Below are positions 1 through 64,000 of a stretch of DNA of 64,000 bases, piece by piece. Location: assembly GCA_947095585.1 (NCBI GenBank), contig OX352761.1:21853777-21917776 (forward strand), read 5' to 3'. This DNA is from Nephrocerus scutellatus. Lineage: Eukaryota > Arthropoda > Insecta > Diptera > Pipunculidae. Made by a program: the position numbers and the translations under genes. The notes beneath the pieces were generated by a model that searched no databases, was not told the DNA's origin, and worked only from the letters and a program-made list of their open reading frames with translations. How positions within the stretch are numbered: the stretch's first letter is position 1; each line of letters starts with the position of its first letter.

Positions 1-834
1 AACTTTTTAATTATTTGTTTAGGCTACTGCAAAGAAACCAAAAAAAGATAAGAATCTAATTGACAGTTTTGGCGTTTTGACGTTTACTTTTCTTTTCTGC
101 ACCGGTGTCCCTCTCGATTCCACGTGTGTGTTTACATTTTTCTACATCGCGTTTTGACGAAAACTTCATTATTTAAATAAAATTTAATTAGAAGTAATGT
201 TGATAGAAGCAAGGATTTTATCCTTATTTAAGACAGGTGAATTCCAAACAGCTTCATGCTTTTAAGAGAGAACTAAAAAGATTTTATTAAGAAATTGACT
301 CTCACGCCCAAAATCAGCTCGCCTTAACTTTCCCTTCTACCAGCGACATCAACCGAAAGCGAATAAAAGTTTTTCCGCTGCAATGTCTGAAGCAATTGAC
401 AAATTTGAAGAACAGAAACAAAAGGCCAAAATAGCTGCAGCTGCAGAAGTTGCAAATAAAGAAGATTCAAACATAAAAGAAGATGATACCAGCGCCCGTT
501 TCATAAAGCATCGTCTAAAGAAACGCAAATGGGAGGAGTACAACTTGACCAAGCAAGAAGATTCTACCAAAAGAGCCAACTTTGATCCAGCCGAGCGGGT
601 GAAGCGGAAAAAGACTGCTATCGTAGTAGGGTATTCAGGGGCCAATTACTTTGGCATGCAACGAAATCCTGGTATGAAGACAATTGAAGAAGAACTCTTC
701 ACAGTGATGCTAAAACATAAATGGATTACCGAGGATGGGTACGAGCAAGCACAGAACGCTAACTTCCAGCGAGCAGCACGAACGGACAAGGGCGTATCTG
801 CCGCTCGGCAGGTGTGCTCTGTTAAACTGCGTAA
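1..834. repeat. Left copy of an exact direct repeat (PUS1 promoter and exon 1)
   Basis: Line-by-line reading shows bases 1-834 recurring at 5051-5884 with an offset of exactly 5050 and no difference that I noticed. The unit holds about 380 bases of upstream/5' UTR sequence plus the whole first coding exon of PUS1. Identity stops four bases after the exon 1 splice donor. The left limit lies at or beyond the window edge. It is either a very recent segmental duplication or an assembly or haplotype artefact. Confidence 0.9.
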
Positions 835-5050: not shown

Positions 5051-5884
5051 AACTTTTTAATTATTTGTTTAGGCTACTGCAAAGAAACCAAAAAAAGATA
5101 AGAATCTAATTGACAGTTTTGGCGTTTTGACGTTTACTTTTCTTTTCTGCACCGGTGTCCCTCTCGATTCCACGTGTGTGTTTACATTTTTCTACATCGC
5201 GTTTTGACGAAAACTTCATTATTTAAATAAAATTTAATTAGAAGTAATGTTGATAGAAGCAAGGATTTTATCCTTATTTAAGACAGGTGAATTCCAAACA
5301 GCTTCATGCTTTTAAGAGAGAACTAAAAAGATTTTATTAAGAAATTGACTCTCACGCCCAAAATCAGCTCGCCTTAACTTTCCCTTCTACCAGCGACATC
5401 AACCGAAAGCGAATAAAAGTTTTTCCGCTGCAATGTCTGAAGCAATTGACAAATTTGAAGAACAGAAACAAAAGGCCAAAATAGCTGCAGCTGCAGAAGT
5501 TGCAAATAAAGAAGATTCAAACATAAAAGAAGATGATACCAGCGCCCGTTTCATAAAGCATCGTCTAAAGAAACGCAAATGGGAGGAGTACAACTTGACC
5601 AAGCAAGAAGATTCTACCAAAAGAGCCAACTTTGATCCAGCCGAGCGGGTGAAGCGGAAAAAGACTGCTATCGTAGTAGGGTATTCAGGGGCCAATTACT
5701 TTGGCATGCAACGAAATCCTGGTATGAAGACAATTGAAGAAGAACTCTTCACAGTGATGCTAAAACATAAATGGATTACCGAGGATGGGTACGAGCAAGC
5801 ACAGAACGCTAACTTCCAGCGAGCAGCACGAACGGACAAGGGCGTATCTGCCGCTCGGCAGGTGTGCTCTGTTAAACTGCGTAA
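5051..5884. repeat. Right copy of the exact direct repeat
   Basis: This is the same 834 bases as 1-834. Here the repeat flows into a good donor (GTAAGA) and the rest of an intact gene, so this copy is probably the original locus. Confidence 0.9.
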
Positions 5885-51089: not shown

Positions 51090-53760
51090 TACGGAATCCA
51101 AAATCAGCCTCGGATATACTGATGAACGACGACGACCACGGCAACGAAAACGGCTAAGCGATTTAAGAATTTTCTCATGGAACGTACGCTCACTGTATAG
51201 AGTTCGAGCTGCACAGCAGCTGCCCGATACCCTGTCTAAATATAAGGCTGACAGGGAATGGTGTCTTACAAAAATCAGAATATGACACATATTACAGGTG
51301 TCATGCAAGACATGATGTGCTCGGGGTGGGGTTTCTAGTCAGCAAAAGAATGAAACCCACCATTATCGGCTTTAAAGCAATAAATGAACGGCTATGCAAC
51401 CTTCGCGTCCGGGGCAAATTTAAAAACATAAGCCTCATAAATGTTCACGCACCTACAGAGGATTCCCCAGATGATGAAAAAGAAGAATTCTTTGAATCAG
51501 TCGAACGGGATCTCCATGCCTGCCCTCAGTATGATGTAAAAATCATTCTGATGGATATGAATGCTAAAATAGGTAGGGAGCCAGTATTCAGGCAGTACAT
51601 TGGCACCCATAGCTTACACGAGAACACTAATGACAATGGACAGCGAGTCATAGAGATGGCAGCAAGCAATAATTTGGTAGTTGCGAGTACAAGGTTTGCG
51701 CGTAAAAATATCCACAAAGCCACCTGGGTATCTCCCGATGGAGCCACTCGCAACCAGATAGACCACGTGTTGATAGACCGCCGCCACAACCCGAACCTGA
51801 TGACGGTACGAACGTACCGAGGTGCGAACGTCGACTCGGACCACTATCATGTTGGTATGGTGCTCCGAGCGCGGATTACATCATCACAAAAGACTGCATC
51901 CGCGAATCAGATTCGAGTCAACACGGCTGCCCTTCGCAATGAAGAGACCAGAAACAACTACGGTCAAGCGATAGGACTCGCCGTAAATGCAGGGAGAGTA
52001 AGTCCTGTGGCTGAGATGCCGAGCGTAGAAGAGAAATGGACACGCCTTAAATATACTGTCATCAGTACTGCTGACTCCATCTTAGGCAGTAGTCGTAGAG
52101 ATCGAAACGACTGGTTCGATGACGAATGTAAGCTAGCGACTGAACGTAAGAATGTTGCGTACCGAGCAATGCAACAATCTCATGGAACGCGGGCACGCGA
52201 AGATGAATATGAAGAGCTCAGAAGATATGAAAAAACAGTTCACCGGCAAAAGAAAACAGCCTGGGAGAAGAATCTCGTCCGTGAACTGGAGCAGTACACA
52301 GAGCAAGGATCGCACCAGGCGCGGAAGTTCTACCAAAGGGTTTGCGGTATGACACAATATACACCGCGTTGCACATACTGCAAGGACAAAGATGGTAATC
52401 TGATCGCCGATCTCAAAGGTATCTTAGAGCGATGGGAAGAGCACTTTCATGAATTGTTAAATGGCCAGTTAACTAAGGAATTGGAGGCTCCACCAGTGAC
52501 CGAAGATTATACTATGCTGCCTCCACCAAGCATAGACGAAGTTAGGAGAGCGATAAGTCGGCTCAAAGATAATAAGGCCCCGGGAACTGATGGGATCCCA
52601 GCGGAACTGATAAAAATAGGAGGCCCCACATTACACCAAGCAATTCATGAAATAATAGTGCAAGTATGGGAAGAAGAAGCTATGCCAGAAGACTGGCGAA
52701 GAGGCATCCTGTGCCCCATACATAAGAAGGGAGATATCACAAAATGCAGCAATTATCGTAGTATAACGTTGTTGAGTACCGCGTATAAGTTTTTCTCCTC
52801 TATCCTTTAAGACAGGAAAGCCCCATATGCTTAAGTCATCATTGGTCCATACCAGTATGGCATCATTCCAGGCAAATCAACAACTGATCAAATTTACACC
52901 CTAAGGCAGGTGATGGAAAAATGTCTAGAGTTTCAAAACTCACTACACCATCTTTTTATAGACTATAAAGCCGCCTATGATAGCATAGCCAGAGTAGAAC
53001 TTTTTAGAGCCATGAGAGAATTCGGCATCCCAAATAAACTGACACGACTATGTAGGTTGACCATGACCAATGTTATAAGCCAAGTTAAAATATCCGGATC
53101 ACTATCAAGCCAATTCAACATCTATAACGGGCTCCGACAAGGGGATGAGGACTGGCCTGCGTCCTCTTCAACCTGGCGTTGGAGAAAGTGATCCGAGAGT
53201 CTGAAGTAACGACCAGAGGAACAATCCACTATAAGTCCATTCAGATGCTTACGCAGACGATAATGACATTGTTGGTAGTAACCGAAGAGCTGTAGAGGAA
53301 GTTTTCATCCAGATAGAGCAGGCGGCACGAAATCTGGGGCTGCAAATATGAGAGCAAAACAAAGTACATGGTGTCCACGTCTGCGAGTAGAAGATCTAAC
53401 ATTGGTCCCTCAGTTCAAATAGTGGAGTGCGAATTTGAAGTAGTGCAATCCTTTAACTATCTCGGGTCAACTATAGCAGCCGATAACAGCATGGAACCAG
53501 AAATACGCGCACGGTTGCTTAAAGCCAACAACTACTATACTCTGTTAAGACTCTTCAAATCCAGGAACTTAACCATAACCTCCAAGCTGCTGATATATAA
53601 GACAATGGTCATACCAGTACTTACATATGCATCCGAGACTTGGGTGTTTAGCAAAAAGCATTCTGACCTCTTAGCCGCATTCAAGAGAAAAGTCTGACGG
53701 AGAATTGTTGGCCTCGTATGTGAGGAAGGACGATTCCGGAGACTGTATAATCATTTGTAA
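51090..53760 (+). mobile_element. RTE-clade LINE, decayed
   Basis: The endonuclease begins near 51165 (FSWNVRSLYRVRAAQQLPDT), lacks a stretch after YKAD, and continues in the open frame 51317-52810 with INVHAPTEDS, MDMNAKIG, NNLVVASTRF and QIDHVLIDRR, then SDHY. The RT follows: RAISRLKDNKAPGTDGIPAE, PIHKKGDITKCSNYRSITLL. After a stop near 52808 come GIIPGKSTTDQIYTLRQ, HLFIDYKAAYDSI and GLRQGDE. The YADD box region (about 53250) is out of frame. The C-terminal RT part is at 53368-53697, with SFNYLGSTIAADNS and VIPVLTYASETW. At least four frame changes or stops mean it cannot be autonomous. Confidence 0.9.
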
Positions 53761-55400: not shown

Positions 55401-55876
55401 AAATCCCACTTTGTTTCGAATGAATAATTTTTCTGACGTGACATTCACCCCGAACTATAATATAATTAAGTAAGTACAAGTAAGGGAATATCAGCAATAA
55501 ATTGTGTATATCCTTTGTTGCGGTGGAATAAATCATTGTGTACAACGTTCCGGTAAAAGACTTTGTTTTCCTTCATAATGTAGACCAGAAAGTCTTGGAA
55601 AATTGGTTCCAAGAGGGTATAAGTTAACTCAGCGTTTTGTATAACAGCGCCTTGAGTAATACTTAATCCAGGAGTTTCGCGGCTTAACACACATACACAC
55701 ACGCACAGAAAATCCTTCTGAACATAAAATTGCGGTTGTAAATTTATAATCTTTTAAAAAAATTCATTATTTTATAAAGTTAACCGTTAAATATTAATAC
55801 AAAGCAAACATAACTTTTCTTCTTTCAGAATATTATTCACAAAGAAAGATCTTCATCGATCTTCTAACAAAACATC

Positions 55877-58800
55877 ATGGTTGTTGATAAAAACTGGGGT
55901 TTAAATGTGTATGGGGGTGGGTATCCTCATACGAACTGTGAAAAACTTTTCCAAGTTAAAATGGCTGCTGCTGATGTGTACAAATTGTATGCAGTTGATA
56001 ATGGTACGTTGTACAGCTTCCGCTCCGATGGAGACAGGTGGAAAGTCGACACTCAACTGATTGGTTTGGGAAATCCCTTGGCCGAGTTACGTCATGTTGT
56101 CTCCATTAGTGATAGCAAGGATGTTATCCTGTTAAAGGAACCGAAAGGCATTAGCATGTACGTATATGAGAATAAGAAGAAACCCAGTTTGGTGTTTAAA
56201 TCAGAAGATAAAAATGCCAACTGGTTCAATCCCAACTATGAAATCAGCTTTGGAAATTTTTATAACGACACAATATCAAGTATCGGATTGATGACGACCG
56301 ACAGTGAGCAAAACGTTAAATTTTACACTATCACGTTGAAAAACTTGCTTTTGCAAACAAATCATGTGCAGCCACTGCTTAATACTAACATAAGTACCAT
56401 TTTGAATAAAAAATTCCCAGCAATATCTAAAATTATGATGGCCAATTTAAAGAAACAACCAAATCAGCAATTGATAGCAAGAAATGCAGTTGGTTTAAAT
56501 GTATTTGAGTTCAATGCATATAATTACATCAATTATGTCATGCAAATTCCATATGCAGGCTTACCGTCTAATGCAAAAAATGGAGACGAACTTTTTTTTC
56601 CGGATCTTACTGGTCAGCTTGAGTGGAATGACATTGCCCTGTTCAACTCTAGCGGAATGTTTGTGTATGGGTACGCGAATTTGAATGACACATACAAGTT
56701 CATTACATACAATCCATTGTTCTCTGAAGCCAACGGATGGACGAACGCGCATACACGTACCGTAAGATTCGGTGACATCAATCAAGATGGTCGGGATGAG
56801 ATTATATTCACTGGACCAGCAGGAATTGAAATACATTCTTACGATCAGATCGCCAACAAATGGAAATCGTTACTTAGTACTTCAAAATTATCGGCAATGC
56901 AACGTCACACAACGCTTCTGCAAGTATTACCGCGAGAACGCAATTCGGTTTTGTTTTCACATCACTCGGGCAAATTTTATTGGTCAAAGATTGTCGAAGA
57001 AGCAGTTGAAGTGATCGAAGATCAATCATCAATGGACAAGAATTTCCCGTTGCCATTGAATAACATCACAGCAGTTGTTCCTATGTACAAACCAAGGGTC
57101 GAGAATGTAAGTACCCTTTACTTAAGGGATACAATATTTTGGTCTGAAATGTTGGATTCAATTGTTAATCCTGCCACAGGAAAGCCGAAGTTCGTGTTGC
57201 CACTGATTGATGATCCATATTCATTAATTAAACTACGTCTGTTCTACGACGGTAGCCACGGTGGCACTGGCACTTTAGGTGAAGGATGGTCCATACCGCA
57301 AAACTTCATTATTCTGGACCATCAAGATAGTATTTTCCCAACTGATGAGAGCTACTTTTTGGTAGTAGACGATATTCCGCATAAGCTAAAACTATTGCCT
57401 GCAAATTCTACTCTGGGAGTTCAAGTTTATACCTTGGAACATGCGAATAAAGTCATCGTTGAAAAAGAGAAAATCTGGGCTAATTTTTATCCTGCCAGTA
57501 ATAAGTGGGAGATTGAATTTGGATCTGATCATAAACATATTTACGGCAGTTTCTCAACTCAGAATGAAATCTACGGCGCTGTATCCAAAGAACTAACATG
57601 GAAGAATTGGCGAGGTGCTGGTTTTGATGACAACGAACAAGTGGAACGCGTTAACATGTGGTATTTGGGTGCAGTGGAAATTAGAGGGATAGTGAGTAAT
57701 CTGAAATATGATGTAGTCGTGGAGCCGGTTAAAGGTACCAATTTCGGTTATACCAAAGAGGTTTACTTGAAAACAATGCGCAGCAATGAAACGGCACTCA
57801 CATTTTCCTACCACAACAAAAATGCCAGCGAGTATAAGCAGTTTCCGAACCAAGACAAGCAAGGGAACTACATCCGCGAAATGATGCAATCTCGATTTAT
57901 TTCCGGTTACAAATACACCACCACAACTAAGCAACAAACCGTCACTTTCGAATACACTATTTTAAACAGTAAACGTGTTCTCACCTCTCTGAAGCAAACA
58001 CCCGATTATACCGAGAACCCAGTAATGATATTTGAATATACCGAGTTGCCAGCAGATACATGTTCCATGGAAAGCTTAACTTTACCAACTGGCGTAAAAT
58101 TTAATTTCAATTACACTCCAATGGGAAAGTTCAAGCCTATAGATGAAAGCATAGTTCGAGAGATGACTGTTTCAGATAATTACATTGTGACCAATGGACC
58201 CGATTTCACGCTGGTATCGTACATAGATAACGACCAAAAACAAGTCGTCTTACGCATGTTTACCCAGGACTTATCCCAAGAGGTATACACCTCGGAACCA
58301 GATATAAAGTGGCCTCTTCTTGGTCCATCAGGCGCAGTACAACACTATGAGATTCTAATGGGAAATTCTTACTTTGCTGTAGTAGCTTATAGCCAAACTA
58401 AAAAACATCTTTACGGATGTGGGCGACACATGAACGGCGACTGGCACACCAACTTTGAACAACGCGTTTACCAAAGTGACTCTGTAATGATCAGCGGAAC
58501 TACATTCGTTTTAATATCGGATCCTGGAAGAGAAAATTCTCTGATCGAGTGGAAACAAAGAGAAGGAAAATGGCGCACGCAGGAATTTGAAAAATATACA
58601 CCGTTTACAAGCATAGCTGTCTACCGGAATACATTCGCAATGTACAATGACACTGATATTTTATTGGGATACAAAAAAAGCGAAAATGACAAAAATTGGA
58701 GTTTAGTACCGCTCTTTTATTCTCCAGGCTCCCTTAAGGCAACAAACGACATTTTAACCAAATTTAACCTGGATACAAGGACGCACACACTTATATTTGG

Positions 58801-61800
58801 TTTCTTTCGGAACAATGCCCTACAAATTAGCCAAAATCTAATCGTTTTGAGTGAATTAGTTATTGAGAATGATAATCGTCTCCTAACAAGAATAAAATCG
58901 TACACAATTGGACGGGACTATAAAGTTGCCAAGAACGAAACCGTTGACGTAGCTCAAGATACTTTAGCAGACATACCATCTAAAGAGTATAGCGACAACA
59001 CATACAAATATGTCCACATAAATGGAGAGATGAGGATAAAAGAAACTAATTTAAAAGACTCATCGATAAGTCGTTTACTTCCCACCCCCACAGAGATGTT
59101 TCTCCTTAACCTCAAAAATTACCATGTGTCATTGAGTGGCCAAATATTATCGTGCAATAAAAATAGTTATTCGTTTAGCGGAGTGAAATGGCGCCACTTA
59201 AATGTTACAGAAGATCAACGCCTTCAGACTGTTGTGGATATTCCATTGGGCGATAAGTTTATTATAAGTAAGACAAAAGCACAACCTACGGTAAGACTTT
59301 TAAATGCCACCACAAATGAAATGCTTTTTGATTTTAACGCAAAGAATATAAGTAGTGTCCAGATACACTTCCCTATATATTTGGCATCGCAGGAGTCTGG
59401 AAAGGCTATTTCTATAGTTGAGCTCATGAATGGAAAAACACCGGAATTTAAAAACACCACTCTGCCAGTGTCAGAAGAACTAAGTCCGTATGGAAGTGCA
59501 AGAACATTGATCACGCATGAGGCTCAAGGGAAAGGTAAGCGCTTGTTGATTTTCCGGCCACTATATGGAGTCCGTCGCTTTATTCCGAATTATGTGGTAA
59601 CTCAAGCGACAATTTTAATACCTGGCGCAACTGGAGGGTCCAAGGAAAGAGTCACCGGCTATGTATATGATGAGGATTCTGTCAAAGTAGGAATCGATAA
59701 CATATATTATGAGCATACAGATATATTGCCTGGAAATAACATGGCACTCTATGGTTCTGTAAACATTACGACAGTATCTGTTGCATATGTCAACGGTAAA
59801 AACAGAGTTGTAAAAGTTACCCAACTAAAAAACAAAGAACATGAAGAACAGGAAGACACTGAAGAGGAAATAAATCATAAAAAAGGTAAGGTTATCCATT
59901 AGGTTAGGTTAGGTTAAGGTGGCTGTCAGTGAAACCGACACACTTAGACCAGTAATGATCCATTATGATACCACACGGATCAGGAAAAATTCCCCCCACC
60001 TACTCGATGAACCAATTAGAGCTTCGTATGAAGCGTAGGATACTACCAGTATTTCAATGTTGATGAGATCATTAGTGTCGTTGTAGAAGAAATCTCCCAT
60101 ATGGAGTTTACGTTGTTGGGAGAGGGCTGGACAAGTACAGAGAAGATGGACGATGGTCTCATCCTCCTCCTCATCCATGCATTCGAGAAGACTCCAAGTC
60201 TTGCTACATGCCTGCCTATGAGACAGTCTCCGGTGATGGCACCTACAATAGCACCGATGTGCGATCTTTTTTGAGAGATCAAACACTTGGAGCGTTTCGG
60301 ATCCAGCTTGGGCCAGATCGGCTTTGTCTTTATGCAAGTTGTACCGTTTGACCACCTACAGTTAGTTTTTACATTAGTATCCTGCTTGAACAGGAGTTTC
60401 CATGTAGCGATTGGTATGCCTATGGAACCATATTCAGGTAAGAAGGGTAGTGTAGTTCCTTGCTTGGCGAGTTTGTCAGCCATACAGTTACGCGGAATGT
60501 CTCTGTGCCCCGGCACCCAACACAGGTGAATATAGAACTGCTCCGCCATCTCCACGAGAGATGATCGGCAGTTAAGGGCTAGAATTGAATTTGTAGAGAC
60601 TGATTCCAGGGATTTCAGTGCAGCTTTGCTATGCGAGAACATACGAATATGTAGCGGATATGACGTTTCTCTTCAGCCAAGACAAGGCTTCACTGATCGC
60701 CATAATTTCATTCCGATTTATTTGCTGTAAATATCGAGTGGTGCAAGGTCGAACAGAATGTCCAATACGGCGGATGGGGTTGTACAAAGTGCTCCGCTCA
60801 AACATAGACTAGCTGATCTTTGGACTTTGCTTAATTTGTCAAAGTTTACTTTCTTATTTAATCTTATACTACCGCTGTATATAGCCAATGGGTTATATGG
60901 GGTTGAAGGCTCCAACGGCTACCAATGGCCTTTTTGCATGAGAAGAGTGCCACTGTGGCTTTACGACCTCTTCCTTGTATGTTAGGTTTCCAGCTTAGCT
61001 TTCTGTCCGAAATAAGAACCAAATACTTGACTCTATAAGAGAATTTTAAGCTTATACCTATTATGGAAGAGGGTTAATAAGTGGGACTTTATATTTCCTG
61101 GAGACTAGGACAAGCTTAGTTTTTGAGCTTGTTGAGAGCATTCTGCAGGAGTTCATTTAAGGTATTCGGGTATTTTCCTGAGACGGCAATAGCAACGTCA
61201 TCCGAATAAGCGATTACTCTGCACCCATACAAATTTTATAAAAAGAAGTACCCGATTTTCTTCACAGTTTATAGACATGTGTTTCTCCGATGGAAACACT
61301 TTTTGTAAAAATTTTGGAGTGATCAGGATAAGGGGGCTCCATTTGAACTTTGTGTATCAATTAGAGAATTTACACGAAAATTTTAAATTTTTATGGGTTG
61401 TTTATATTTTGAATTAACTGAACTGATGAACGACTCCTTTCGTTGGAATTTTTTGGTAGAAATATTTCTTCATTGTAAATTTGGAAATGGTTTCCTCTTT
61501 TTAAATTCTCTATATTAACTTAACTTGCCCGTGGGTCGTCGGTCGTCGGTCGTCGGTCGTCGGTCGTCTGTCGTGGATTCTTGCGCTCAATTTTTAACCC
61601 ACTTTCAATGGCCCGATTTTATTGCACACATGTGTATTTCCGGAGAAAACACTTTCTATTAAATTTTGAGGCCCCTCGGGCTGCGGGGTCGGGCCCTTAT
61701 ACATTTTTTAAATATCTATACTGGCATCAGATATTCGTCGCCCTTAATGGACTGTGTGCGGTGTGTGCTGCGCAGTCGGCTGTCGTGGAATCTTGCGATC

Positions 61801-64000
61801 AATTTTTAACCCACTTCCCAAAGCCCGATTTTATTGAAATTTTGCACACATGTGTCTTTCCGGAGACAACACTTGCAACACAATTTGAGGCCCCTCGGGC
61901 CCCGGGGTCGGGGGGCTCCCATACAAATATTTTACAAAATTTTACTCGATTTTCTTCAAATTTTATACACATGTGTATCTCTGATAGACAACACTTTTTG
62001 TAAAAATTTTTTTTTTTTTTCGTGGGACCCCAGAAATTTTTTTTCAAAAAATAGCCCGATTTTCTTTAAATTTTATATAAGCGTGTATCTCAGATAGGCA
62101 ACACTTCTTGTACAAATTTGGAGAACCTGGGCCCCGGGTTCGTGGGGCCCCATATAAAAAAAAAATTAACCCGATTTTCTTCAAATTTTATATACGCGTG
62201 TATCTCCGATAGGCAACACTTTTTGTGAAAAAATTTGAGACCCTGGGCCCCGGGTTCGTGGGGCCCCATAAAATTAAAAAAAAAATAATTAACCCGATTT
62301 TCTTCAAATTTTATATACGCGTGTATCTCCGATAGGCAACACTTTTTGTAAAAATTTTGGAGACCGTGGTCGTGGGGCCCCAACATTTAAAAAAAAAAAC
62401 TAACCCGATTTTCTTCAAATTTTATACACCTATGTATCTCCGATGGGCCACATTTTTTTTACAGTTTTTGAAGTGAACGGGCCCTGATGGCCCATATAAA
62501 TTTTTTAAAATTTAGCTCGATTTTCTTCAAATTTTTAACACATGTGTATCACTGATGGACATAACTTTTTGTAAATTTGTTGGAGTGATAGGGCCCTGAG
62601 ACCCGTGTGGTGTCCATGTAAATTTTTTAAAAATTAGCCCGATTTTCTTCAAATTTTAACACATACCTATCTCCTATTAGAGAATTTACATGAAAAATTT
62701 TAATTTTTATGGGTTGTTTTTTTTTGTATTAGAGACGGATAAACTGTTAGGAGGTGTTCTCTTCTTCGTGGCTGGTCTCTTCGCTGTTGATTTTCATTCT
62801 ATGCCGGTGACATTGTTGCAGGTATTACGTTTTGTTAGTGCTCCACACAAAATTCTCAATTCTCTTATCGTTTGAGTCAAGAAGTTTAGGAATTTTTTTC
62901 GAGTCTTTTAATCCCATTATGTTTTTCCAGTATATAGGAATTTGTGCATTTTCTTACTCAATTACTAGCGACATAGAGGGCTAGGTCTTAAGGAATAAAG
63001 TCTTTGCAACTTTTTTGGCCATTGAGTTGGCCATCTTATTGCCAGTGTGCCCTTCGTGTCCCTGGTACACAAAAAAATATAACTTTATAATTTTTTGCCA
63101 GTTTGTTTAGGCATTCGACGACTGCATCAATTTGAATTCATATTTTTTAGTGGCTTAAGCACAGCTTCACTGTGGTCTTTTTGTCTTTATTGGCCTTTAT
63201 GCTAGCAAGTGCAGCAGGCATCTTGGTCATGCTATTACCGCCCCTACTTCCTCAGTGGTTTTTCTGATGGGTTTCCTATACTTAGGCCTTGCTTATGATT
63301 GATGTTTCGGCGGATGCCATCAATATTGCCTGGCGAATTAGTTTAGCCTATACCAAATGTATCATACACAACACAAATGAAAAAACAAACATATTTTTTT
63401 ACTCGATTTGTATTTTTATTCGCAGCCTCAACGCTCTATGGCAAGGACGGTTATCTCGAAATCGCTCATTTTCCTTTACACCCGCTGGCCAGTCAGATGT
63501 CAGGCTATATTGGTTTTGAGGATTATGAGAATAATCAGATTGGCGTGAACAGAAGTTGGAGCTTTAAGAATGACAAGATTGAACGAGGAGGATTTGCCCT
63601 GACCGGCCAAAATTATTTGCACTTAGATGGTGGATCTATGGAGGGATTGTTTCAACCGCAGTACCAGCATCAAGAGTTTGTGGCATCGTGCTGGATTCGC
63701 ACAAAATATGTAAACAGTGTCCTCAATGTAAGCACTGTAAAGCCATACCTTAAGGCAGGCATTCTCACAGCAAATGGTGGTAGCGTCGTGAACTTCATAG
63801 GTAAAGTGAACTTTCAAATTAACGATTGGTTTTATATGGAAGTTATTGTCGATCTGAATTATGCGCATGAAATGCTTAAAGCCGCCAACGAATCGCAGCC
63901 TGAAAATCTCCAAGTTGCTATACGAGTTGGACCAATGCCCAATGATCCAATTGATGTCGACAATGTTCGCTTTGCCCCATTGAACTCCAACTTTGATGTA
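55877..64000 (+). CDS. Giant Rhs/Tc-toxin-derived protein, SGS-like (5' part, continues beyond window)
   Basis: Exon 55877-59885 (1336 codons plus one base) joins in phase to an exon starting at 63426 that is still open at the window end. Residues about 1-450 look like a beta-propeller, with an FG-GAP/VCBS calcium loop near 295 (FGDINQDGRDEIIF). From about 460 the GTLGEGWSIP motif opens an Rhs/TcB-like shell. Residues about 775-1060 look like a second propeller. A charged E/K linker ends the exon. The next exon has a lectin-like sandwich (GYIGFEDYE, LHLDGG, ASCWIRT). Many N-glycosylation sites suggest an extracellular or lumenal protein, but no signal peptide is seen. A TAA lies 12 bases before the ATG and an acceptor at 55828, so the first exon may be upstream and non-coding. 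This order matches mosquito SGS proteins, themselves related to bacterial Tc toxin subunits. Function unknown. Confidence 0.8.
59900..61225 (-). mobile_element. LOA/I-like LINE 3' fragment in the SGS-like intron
   Basis: On minus: an RT remnant VIAYSDDVAIAVSG near 61215, then an RT C-terminal part, and RNase H at 60642-60043 (IHLCWVPGHRDIPRNCMADK). A GDCLIGRH region and a cysteine-rich C-terminus (60216-60130) follow. The element's 3' end is GGTTA repeats at 59903-59918, not poly(A). It lies about 15 bases after the exon's splice donor. Confidence 0.8.
61230..62720. repeat. Tandem-repeat elements in the SGS-like intron
   Basis: These are two elements of the 48030 family. The first is a remnant (61240-61390) ending TAGAGAATTTACACGAAAAT. 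The second (61505-62715) has the leader TTCTCTATATTAACTTAACT, a GTCGGTC microrepeat at 61537-61568, about nine units, and the end AGAGAATTTACATGAAAAAT. Open frames inside are repeat products. Confidence 0.8.
62940..63260 (-). mobile_element. LINE RNase H remnant
   Basis: On minus, VYQGHEGHTGNKMANSMAKK (63075-63015) matches the WVPGHxGIxGNExAD block of LINE RNase H domains. The rest is too decayed to assign. Confidence 0.6.

Follow-up and report, generated by a model that had tools for sequence, protein, structure and literature searches.

A nuclear SGS/Tc-type capsule gene of Nephrocerus scutellatus with a probable self-cleaving core and a cargo that differs between two inverted copies

The window analysed here, a stretch of 64,000 nucleotides of a 142-Mb contig (OX352761.1) of Nephrocerus scutellatus, carries a chromosomal capsule gene on its + strand, made up of exon A (55877-59885) and exon B (from 63426), together with host genes for PUS-like, TFIIF-beta and zinc-finger proteins. 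Exon B ends beyond the window at the window-equivalent position 70915 (C1:21924691), giving a gene of 3832 codons in total, with the following features:

55829..55876, + strand: probable 5' UTR, placed from sequence only, after the splice acceptor TTTCTTCTTTCAG ending at 55828
55877..59885, + strand: exon A, 1336 codons plus 1 nt, comprising beta-propeller 1, Rhs shell start, beta-propeller 2, shell strands and 'fence'
55877..57076, + strand: beta-propeller 1 region, residues 1-400, matching SGS4 residues 84-312 (E=0.00019)
57116..58126, + strand: Rhs shell start (GTLGEGWSI), residues 414-750, matching SGS1 383-697 (E=1.5e-13) and SGS4 404-651 (E=5.7e-6)
58154..59626, + strand: beta-propeller 2, about residues 760-1250, its ends inferred from the collinear stretch of SGS1, 705-1216
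59804..59885, + strand: charged linker at the end of exon A, at about the place of the SGS1 'fence'; exon ends collinear with SGS4 1289/1301 and SGS1 1326
59886..63425, + strand: phase-1 GT-AG intron of 3540 bp, with donor and acceptor identical in the paralogue
63426..64000, + strand: exon B start (carbohydrate-binding module), the remainder lying outside the window (L010 2-6991)

The long first exon, already noticed in a preliminary description of this DNA, is real: the ORF 55877-59902 (1341 codons) lies in a stop-free run of 1344 codons, against a maximum of 212 in 100 Markov-1 resamples of the window, which rejects a chance origin. An in-frame TAA at 55865 makes the ATG at 55877 the start, and the acceptor TTTCTTCTTTCAG and leader upstream of it are also found in the paralogue. 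Two stop-free GT-AG pairings exist between donors 59860-59905 and acceptors 63300-63440, and the 59886/63426 pairing was chosen because its exon B start continues the alignment with SGS4 (exon A ending at SGS4 1289 and exon B starting at 1301). The phase-matched intron that had been proposed is thus upheld by an alignment continuing across it and by a junction repeated in the paralogue, and the gene, spliced and on a chromosome, is endogenised as supposed. Inside the intron we find short repeats and an antisense, LINE-like RNase H remnant (60043-60642, minus strand; Pfam RNase_H E=6.7e-5, just under the Pfam cut-off).

Both exons run collinearly with mosquito SGS4 and SGS1, two proteins of solved structure, and exon A finds SGS4 in the PDB with E=7.8e-18. 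The GTLGEGWSI motif stands at residues 465-473, where it had been read as a shell start, and aligns with the shell starts of SGS1 and SGS4, the only PDB entries matched by a profile of this region. The FG-GAP-like loop suggested near residue 295 has a counterpart at residues 250-310, although weak and under the cut-off (Pfam FG-GAP_3 E=0.0015). A second propeller-like region was also recovered, SGS4 1044-1289 matching this part of exon A with E=8.9e-7; the likeness is clear at residues 1073-1327 and very weak (2.1 bits) at 850-1014. In SGS1, beta-propeller 2 spans 705-1216 and the 'fence' 1303-1321 (PMC9935623). No hydrophobic signal-peptide-like segment was found in residues 1-400 with a Kyte-Doolittle 19-mer, whose maximum over exon A is only 0.93, at residue 1235. 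In an AlphaFold model of residues 1-1200, SGS1 (8fjp) was the top structural match (E=1.2e-38, the next being 4.6e-13; TM 0.25), but with a mean pLDDT of only 62.6 this low-confidence model was taken as support only; residues ~770-1030 were modelled best, with pLDDT mostly 70-90.

The part of exon B inside the window matches SGS4 (E=3e-12), SGS1 (E=9.9e-8) and a Cardinium protein (E=1e-28), and beyond it the matches reach E=4.5e-223 with SGS1 and E=4.2e-21 with Rhs_assc_core. In order, exon B holds a carbohydrate-binding module, an Rhs core with autoprotease residues, a hydrophobic region, and weak deaminase-like and Latrotoxin_C-like matches, so that the continuation guessed for the gene past the window was indeed there. 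The exon start, previously called lectin-like, does correspond to a carbohydrate-binding module, that of SGS1, but the lectin-CRD itself lies further downstream. Alignment to SGS1, whose autoprotease Asp2729 and cut at 2733/2734 are given in PMC9935623, revealed the Arg and two-Asp set and a predicted cleavage site, and the Rhs core is predicted to cut the chain after exon B residue 1468. Among the hydrophobic segments that follow the core, the first two are kept in both intact copies, as is a furin-like RSRR motif. The deaminase-like match scores 21.1 bits (Pfam cut-off 25.9) and the Latrotoxin_C-like C-terminus 16.7 bits (cut-off 25), the latter segment aligning with the Latrotoxin_C part of the Wolbachia protein P0014 at E=1e-13. 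A majority consensus of nine proteins (capsule gene, Wolbachia, Armigeres, bugs and unnamed ones; A4) retains NCAEPHV...RCDxC and RxRRS. The Tox-SGS domain (PF15651) was not detected at E<=1 from exon B residue 167 onward or at E<=0.1 in the last 436 residues, in searches whose HMMER filters discard most matches above about 0.1. With propeller 1, shell, propeller 2, carbohydrate-binding module and Rhs core in the order of SGS1 and SGS4, as in the SGS-like RHS capsule superfamily, the proposed giant protein of Tc/Rhs ancestry is confirmed in outline, and the identity of the locus as a nuclear insect gene for an SGS/Tc-type capsule is, judged from sequence, hardly in doubt.

A second intact copy, an inverted paralogue, lies ~73 kb further along the chromosome, and another contig carries a third copy in a decayed state. 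The intact copies have the phase-1 GT-AG intron in common and an open exon A with 89.8% amino acid identity. Their comparison, one pair of copies in one genome with 500 bootstraps, gave for the exon B shell dN 0.031, dS 0.058 and omega 0.53 (0.39-0.74), with 0 of 500 bootstraps above 1. For the cargo (codons 1490-2095) dN rose to 0.533 and dS to 0.408, with omega 1.31 (1.04-1.65), and its gap-free first 151 codons (1490-1640) reached 2.43 (1.50-4.20). Omega was 1.09 in codons 2096-2310 and 0.38 (0.15-0.88) in the last 185 codons, where the extreme C-terminus is conserved again; the two cargoes are homologous versions rather than unrelated domains. These values were identical under three alignment settings, and other estimators gave 0.49-0.55 for the shell, 1.22-1.37 for the cargo, 0.37-0.58 for the last 185 codons, and 2.27 and 2.74 for the first cargo stretch (with no YN00 value). 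A three-segment fit put breaks at codons 1489 and 2100 (nucleotide identities 0.964/0.632/0.892); cargo divergence thus begins 21 codons after the predicted autocleavage site, and is about tenfold that of the exon B shell. Exon A gave 0.80 (0.59-1.14), not clearly below 1. Of 34 windows covering exon A together with the shell part of exon B, 5 had an omega above 1, three of them above 2.4 at very low dS; omega in the propeller-2 stretch (exon A codons 826-1051) exceeded 4, on very few synonymous changes, and this stretch has possibly diversified too, in a place that may overlap the lid touching the cargo in SGS1. Intron divergence was dropped as a neutral yardstick because the alignable pieces may be transposon copies.

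This pattern, a constant delivery part with a variable C-terminal part as in polymorphic toxins, leads us to favour, on balance, a domesticated self-cleaving capsule with a diversifying cargo, encoded by one of two intact inverted paralogues. That the product is a secreted, self-cleaving capsule seems probable; that selection diversified its cargo falls a little short of that. Secretion of the protein would need no signal peptide, as seems to be the case for SGS1, and the Rhs core would cut the chain after exon B residue 1468, leaving the released C-terminal part enclosed by the shell. Propellers and carbohydrate-binding domains might then bind target surfaces, the helices aiding the C-terminal part to cross the membrane, and the two copies could deliver different cargo versions, driven apart by selection as their targets changed, whether these are parasitoids, microbes or food hosts. 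More tentatively, the insect may have domesticated an entire polymorphic-toxin device of bacteria and still use it as such, the locus then belonging to a host-encoded arsenal in which a constrained self-cleaving capsule, in at least two chromosomal copies, stays constant as a vehicle as its payload changes under positive selection.

The contrast between shell and cargo could also come about if two old paralogues had their flanks homogenised by gene conversion, leaving a cargo that diverged without selection. The raised cargo dS (0.17-0.41 against 0.058 in the shell) means that part of the contrast reflects different age, whether because conversion homogenised the shell or because an older copy took part in recombination; the sharp breaks and a shell dS that varies from 0.01 to 0.18 between 151-codon windows fit such a mosaic, and the decayed third copy indicates that older paralogues existed. 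Conversion alone does not, however, produce the excess of dN over dS in the cargo, and in 8 of 8 pairs of relatives compared, too, variation is greater past the core than within the shell (e.g. 78.9 vs 43.5%), a comparison that cannot separate selection from low constraint. We regard this mosaic as a serious possibility, though not a probable one. Rather unlikely is a domesticated non-toxic protein whose function, in saliva, at the gut lining or in adhesion, resides in the shell and the receptor domains, with a residual cargo that drifts under weak constraint. Relaxation could explain why omega is close to 1 both in the cargo taken as a whole and in codons 2096-2310, and the cargo motif matches are weak, but the gap-free stretch lies above neutrality, and in both copies the reading frame stays open and the first two hydrophobic segments are retained along with the RSRR site and the constrained C-terminal end.

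Fourteen relatives were found at E<=0.001 among 7979 scored proteins, the top three being Wolbachia proteins, in agreement with the bacterial affinity that had been anticipated. Exon A aligns with three Wolbachia RHS proteins at 608-667 bits (local phmmer) and with the Cardinium plasmid protein at E=5e-66; Cardinium was dropped as nearest relative once the Wolbachia proteins led the search. A first exon A protein search, with length limits that exclude SGS proteins of ~3300 aa, had given 0 of 7269 candidates at E<=0.001. Pattern scans of genome contigs (49 and 244 matches) confirmed no relative and a scan of viral contigs (41 matches) found none; tblastn against phages gave nothing at E<=0.1, and the Cardinium N-terminal part matched only itself in PLSDB. 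In trees that include Wolbachia and bug relatives the capsule gene is a separate lineage, maximum-likelihood trees of both exons placing it outside the Wolbachia+Armigeres clade. Grouping with the bug proteins was rejected by the AU test for exon B (p=0.0018) and not for exon A (p=0.104). Common descent with mosquito SGS from a dipteran ancestor, as true orthologues, would explain the shared architecture, the insect hosts, the PDB matches with SGS4 and SGS1, and an initial tree, lacking the Wolbachia and bug rows, that joined the gene to SGS1/SGS4 against the Cardinium type (99.9/100). Nevertheless, identities to mosquito SGS are the lowest among the named groups (16-20% over exon A, 31-33% over the exon B shell), the AU test rejects the grouping (p=0.000321 for exon B, 0.000262 for exon A) although the SH test does not (p=0.062 and 0.088), and Tox-SGS was not found, so that the earlier assignment as an SGS relative stands for the superfamily but is not supported for orthology, which is very improbable. 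A recent Wolbachia insertion or contamination, suggested by the best relatives, is scarcely credible given identities of only 32.5-33.6% over exon A (two proteins) and 47% over the exon B shell (three), the intron with its transposon-like remnant, adjoining host genes, a dispersed paralogue and a decayed copy, and nesting within Wolbachia+Armigeres disfavoured by AU (p=0.047 exon B, 0.024 exon A; SH p=0.107 and 0.046). Most likely, the capsule gene derives from RHS giant proteins of arthropod endosymbionts, with those of Wolbachia as nearest relatives.

Blood feeding is the usual explanation for mosquito SGS proteins. The separate ancestry of this full-length capsule gene in another insect, and the further sequences held by sandflies, assassin/kissing bugs, a damselfly, a biting midge and a bark beetle, suggest repeated uptake of endosymbiont RHS capsules by insects, which calls for a broader explanation. 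To describe the locus as an undescribed system was too strong, as SGS-type proteins outside mosquitoes have been published by Zhang 2012 (PMC3482391) and, for lacewing venom, in PMC12758981, and a Rhodnius protein is annotated 'SGS1-like'. The novelty lies in a second intact copy whose shell is constant and whose cargo diverges, a contrast that offers a direct, testable signature of the selected part, the cargo. Moreover, five insect-labelled proteins, insect by label only, fall among Cardinium-type sequences, 3 of 5 on contigs of 16.5 to 94.7 Mb, and bear on a gap stated in a 2025 review, according to which reports of gene transfer between symbiont and host did not yet exist for Cardinium (PMC12342168).

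Among known systems, Tc toxin BC components, teneurin-like chains and T6SS Rhs proteins share the Rhs core and at most ~100 residues before it (E 1.8e-9 to 6.1e-4), their best matched stretches being confined to the core region; none of these chains appeared at E<=10 when the PDB was searched with exon A or with its pieces. A teneurin was rejected, the best stretch of teneurin-like chains covering only residues 1123-1304 of the L010 protein, around the core, and no EGF family appeared in Pfam scans of the exons. The RHS protein of Cardinium plasmid pcBtQ1 (WP_176453742) has the same capsule, its gene being found with 91% of exon A and 98% of that portion of exon B which the window contains, and its type has insect relatives in Lutzomyia, Phlebotomus, Culicoides, Dendroctonus and Ischnura; it belongs, however, to another clade, with 35-38% identity over the exon B shell, and the Cardinium protein has an ankyrin-repeat tail. 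The Rhodnius prolixus 'SGS1-like' (P0020) and Rhynocoris fuscipes (P0021) proteins are likewise insect-held with a Latrotoxin_C end and 40-42% identity over the exon B shell, but form a separate branch by the exon B AU test. With mosquito SGS1 and SGS4 (PDB 8fjp, 9on3) the capsule gene shares architecture, autoprotease residues, a hydrophobic region after the core and the want of an evident signal peptide, SGS1 having been modelled from residue 1 (PMC9935623); the AU test and the undetected Tox-SGS domain set it apart, and SGS genes are apparently intronless (PMC2647948), unlike this one. Closest are the Wolbachia RHS giant proteins (P0013-P0015, of which P0013 and P0014 carry Latrotoxin_C) and an Armigeres subalbatus protein (P0018), which at 3251-3935 aa are similar in length, with a similar order of parts and 42-47% identity over the exon B shell; the Aedes gene AAEL004181, which has no introns (PMC2647948), is probably of the same type. 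In contrast to these, the capsule gene of N. scutellatus is nuclear with an intron, lies outside their clade in maximum-likelihood trees, and bears unlike cargoes in its two host copies.

The 3′ edge of the window cuts through the gene, and the remainder of exon B was read from contig C1 of the same genome, a 613-Mb assembly of nine contigs in which the window corresponds to C1:21853777-21917776. The two exons, which add up to 3832 codons, and the exon A match of a second, inverted copy are located as follows:

Window 55877-59885: exon A, 1336 codons and a single extra base that goes into the codon spanning the junction.
Window 63426 to C1:21924691: exon B, a single open frame of 2495 full codons.
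C1:22008897-22012919, minus strand: exon A match of copy 2, 90% identical, without stops.

Within the donor and acceptor stretches tested, two GT-AG pairings were free of stops; with 59886/63426, the alignment with SGS4 (PDB 9on3), a solved mosquito salivary gland surface protein, carries on across the junction. Inside the intron, by eye, a unit containing 'CCCGATTTTCTTCAAATTTTATA' recurs several times in tandem-like fashion (window 61500-62720). About 3 kb upstream of the gene lies an endonuclease/reverse-transcriptase-like open frame (window 51317-52810; Pfam E=0.0051, below cut-off), to which a frame between both gene copies is related, also by eye. An 834-bp stretch that includes the 5′ portion of a PUS-like (pseudouridine synthase) gene is present at window 1-834 and again, about 5 kb away, at 5051-5884. 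The two are 100% identical and reflect either an assembly artefact or a tandem duplication of very recent date.

The SGS/Rhs affinity proposed in the preliminary description was borne out, as both exons match the solved structures: exon A matches SGS4 (E=7.8e-18) and its shell start SGS1 (PDB 8fjp; E=1.5e-13), and the part of exon B that starts at residue 167 matches SGS1 (E=4.5e-223) and SGS4 (E=5.9e-212), whereas the matches of Tc, Rhs and teneurin-like chains to exon B are confined to the surroundings of the core. Of the Rhs core, autoprotease and transmembrane segments that this description proposed to look for beyond the window, the core, the autoprotease residues and hydrophobic segments are present downstream. 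Exon B contains the NCBIfam Rhs_assc_core (E=4.2e-21), and in the alignment its autoprotease residues line up with the SGS1 set, Asp2729 included, with a predicted cut after exon B residue 1468. Hydrophobic segments past the core occupy exon B residues 1458-1491, 1507-1551, 1710-1733 and 2308-2326 in copy 1, and 1456-1487, 1500-1544 and 1598-1616 in copy 2. An RSRR motif occurs at exon B position 2217 of copy 1 (2136 of copy 2), and the majority consensus of a nine-protein alignment retains both RxRRS and NCAEPHV...RCDxC, which we take to be a putative furin site and putative deaminase motifs, respectively. Pfam matches to YwqJ-deaminase (21.1 bits) and Latrotoxin_C (16.7 bits) fall under their cut-offs of 25.9 and 25.

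Searching with exon B returned 14 of 7979 scored proteins at E<=0.001: three from Wolbachia, one from Armigeres, two from heteropteran bugs, four of the mosquito Tox-SGS type and four unnamed. In PLSDB, exon A had a single plasmid match at E<=0.1, Cardinium pcBtQ1 (E=5e-66), and exon B matched the same gene (E=1e-28), its sole other match being a Streptomyces plasmid (E=0.5). With the Cardinium protein as query, 11 of 1059 scored candidates proved to be relatives, and five of the 11 carry an insect label. Bit scores from one program and query were for exon A 608-667 in Wolbachia, 552 in Armigeres, 475-559 in three unnamed proteins, 439 in Rhodnius, 241 in Rhynocoris, 192-325 in eleven Cardinium-type proteins (the twelfth, P0012, is without most of the region and unlisted), 115 in the mosquito SGS protein P0024 (P0022, P0023 and P0025 being unlisted) and 14 in the protein P0026. 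For exon B they were 1513-1661 in Wolbachia, 1506 in Armigeres, 1278-1560 in three unnamed proteins, 1312-1346 in the bugs, 857-1083 in twelve Cardinium-type proteins, 679-811 in four mosquito SGS proteins and 126 in P0026. Proteins labelled Lutzomyia, Dendroctonus, Culicoides, Phlebotomus and Ischnura (P0004, P0005, P0010, P0011 and P0012) sit among Cardinium RHS proteins, with 44-68% identity over an aligned part that for two is about one third of the query. For three of the five insect-labelled Cardinium-type proteins the contig is 16.5 to 94.7 Mb long, and Cardinium-to-insect transfers are possible. The bug proteins P0020 (Rhodnius prolixus 'SGS1-like') and P0021 (Rhynocoris fuscipes) form a bug-specific branch, each with a strong Latrotoxin_C match at its end (E=1.6e-92 and 1.3e-16).

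Three trees agree: one from the exon B shell (28 rows), one from an 18-row subset of it, from which wPip, P0026 and eight members of the Cardinium type were dropped, and one from exon A (18 rows). In all three the gene pair is a lineage of its own, falling between a Wolbachia, Armigeres and bug group (supports 87.1/90, 89/81 and 88.2/87, respectively) and a group of mosquito SGS and Cardinium-type proteins. A tree from 944 exon B columns including the decayed copy deviates by placing the bugs weakly (52/54) with SGS and Cardinium instead of Wolbachia, as does an initial small tree that lacked Wolbachia and the bugs and joined the gene to SGS1/SGS4. AU tests gave p=0.0003 for both exons when the fly was grouped with mosquito SGS, 0.0002 for both with the Cardinium type, 0.0018 (exon B) and 0.104 (exon A) with the bugs, and 0.047 and 0.024 within Wolbachia, Armigeres and P0016. 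SH rejected none of these groupings for exon B (p=0.058-0.107); for exon A it rejected the last one alone (p=0.046). Since the trees are effectively unrooted, with a very long P0026 branch, the direction of transfer is argued from how the proteins are spread over taxa and from earlier work (Klasson 2009, PMC2647948).

Among the best candidates scored, exon A has at least seven matches in the genome, namely the gene, its second copy and five pieces of a third one on contig C2. Copy 2 has intron ends identical to those of copy 1, with 1336 codons in exon A and 2432 in exon B; it ends at C1:21997517 and copy 1 at C1:21924691, hence about 73 kb lie between the genes. An assembly artefact is unlikely for this inverted pair, because 5.2% of the aligned exon A bases differ and the copies stand in opposite orientation on one contig. 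Beyond copy 2, overlapping open frames of 258-307 codons (C1:22015429-22016223) start with long single-residue runs, i.e. a long trinucleotide run, as seen in the first 60 residues of each. The C2 copy is decayed, with 20 stop codons across seven tblastn segments in three frames, two overlapping exon B segments, and exon A and exon B matches that abut, the intron region being absent. Its longest exon B piece joins both intact copies (100/100) at 54-55% identity, which indicates that the gene family is old in the source lineage.

Comparison of the intact copies divides exon B at codons 1489 and 2100: nucleotide identity is 0.964 before the first break, 0.632 between the two and 0.892 after the second. 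The first break lies 21 codons beyond the predicted autocleavage site. For this single pair of copies, with bootstrap limits, omega was 0.80 (0.59-1.14) in exon A, 0.53 (0.39-0.74) in the shell and 1.31 (1.04-1.65) in the cargo past the first break (codons 1490-2095). Over the first 151 gap-free codons of the cargo it was 2.43 (1.50-4.20), over codons 2096-2310 1.09 (0.65-1.84) and over the last 185 codons 0.38 (0.15-0.88). These values did not change across three alignment settings, and alternative estimators gave 0.49-0.55 for the shell, 1.22-1.37 for the cargo, 0.37-0.58 for the last 185 codons, and 2.27 and 2.74 for the first cargo stretch, where YN00 gave no value. Along exon A and the exon B shell, omega exceeded 1 in 5 of 34 windows of 151 codons. 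Two overlapping ones in propeller 2 (exon A codons 826-1051, window 58352-59029) exceeded 4 with a dS of 0.011-0.016, too few changes for a firm omega; judging by rough collinearity, this stretch may coincide in part with the SGS1 lid, which contacts the cargo helices. As dS itself is raised in the cargo (0.17-0.41 versus 0.058 in the shell), gene conversion or recombination also shaped the pair. Both cargoes are homologous versions, not separate toxin domains. The contrast between shell and cargo may be general among relatives, given that all eight pairs examined are less conserved past the core than in the shell.

By analogy with SGS1, whose domain limits and mechanism follow PMC9935623, the protein would cleave itself at the Rhs core and keep its C-terminal part inside the shell until release. 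Judged by hydrophobicity alone, the gene has no evident signal peptide; the same analogy suggests that the product would nonetheless be secreted. In a lacewing-venom study, an SGS-like protein was likewise the single exception retained past a signal-peptide filter (PMC12758981). For the cargo, parasitoid protection would be a reasonable first idea to test, after the hypothesis of Verster 2021 for gall midge RHS genes (PMC8455502).

In the open PMC papers searched, which leave out most subscription papers, we found no description of a separate-ancestry SGS-type gene in a non-mosquito fly, nor of a shell/cargo contrast between host paralogues. Already in print are a wider presence of SGS proteins in arthropods (PMC3482391), RHS genes in gall midges (PMC8455502), an SGS-like protein in lacewing venom (PMC12758981), and RHS toxins of SGS-like type in Rickettsia felis and Cardinium (PMC4316617).
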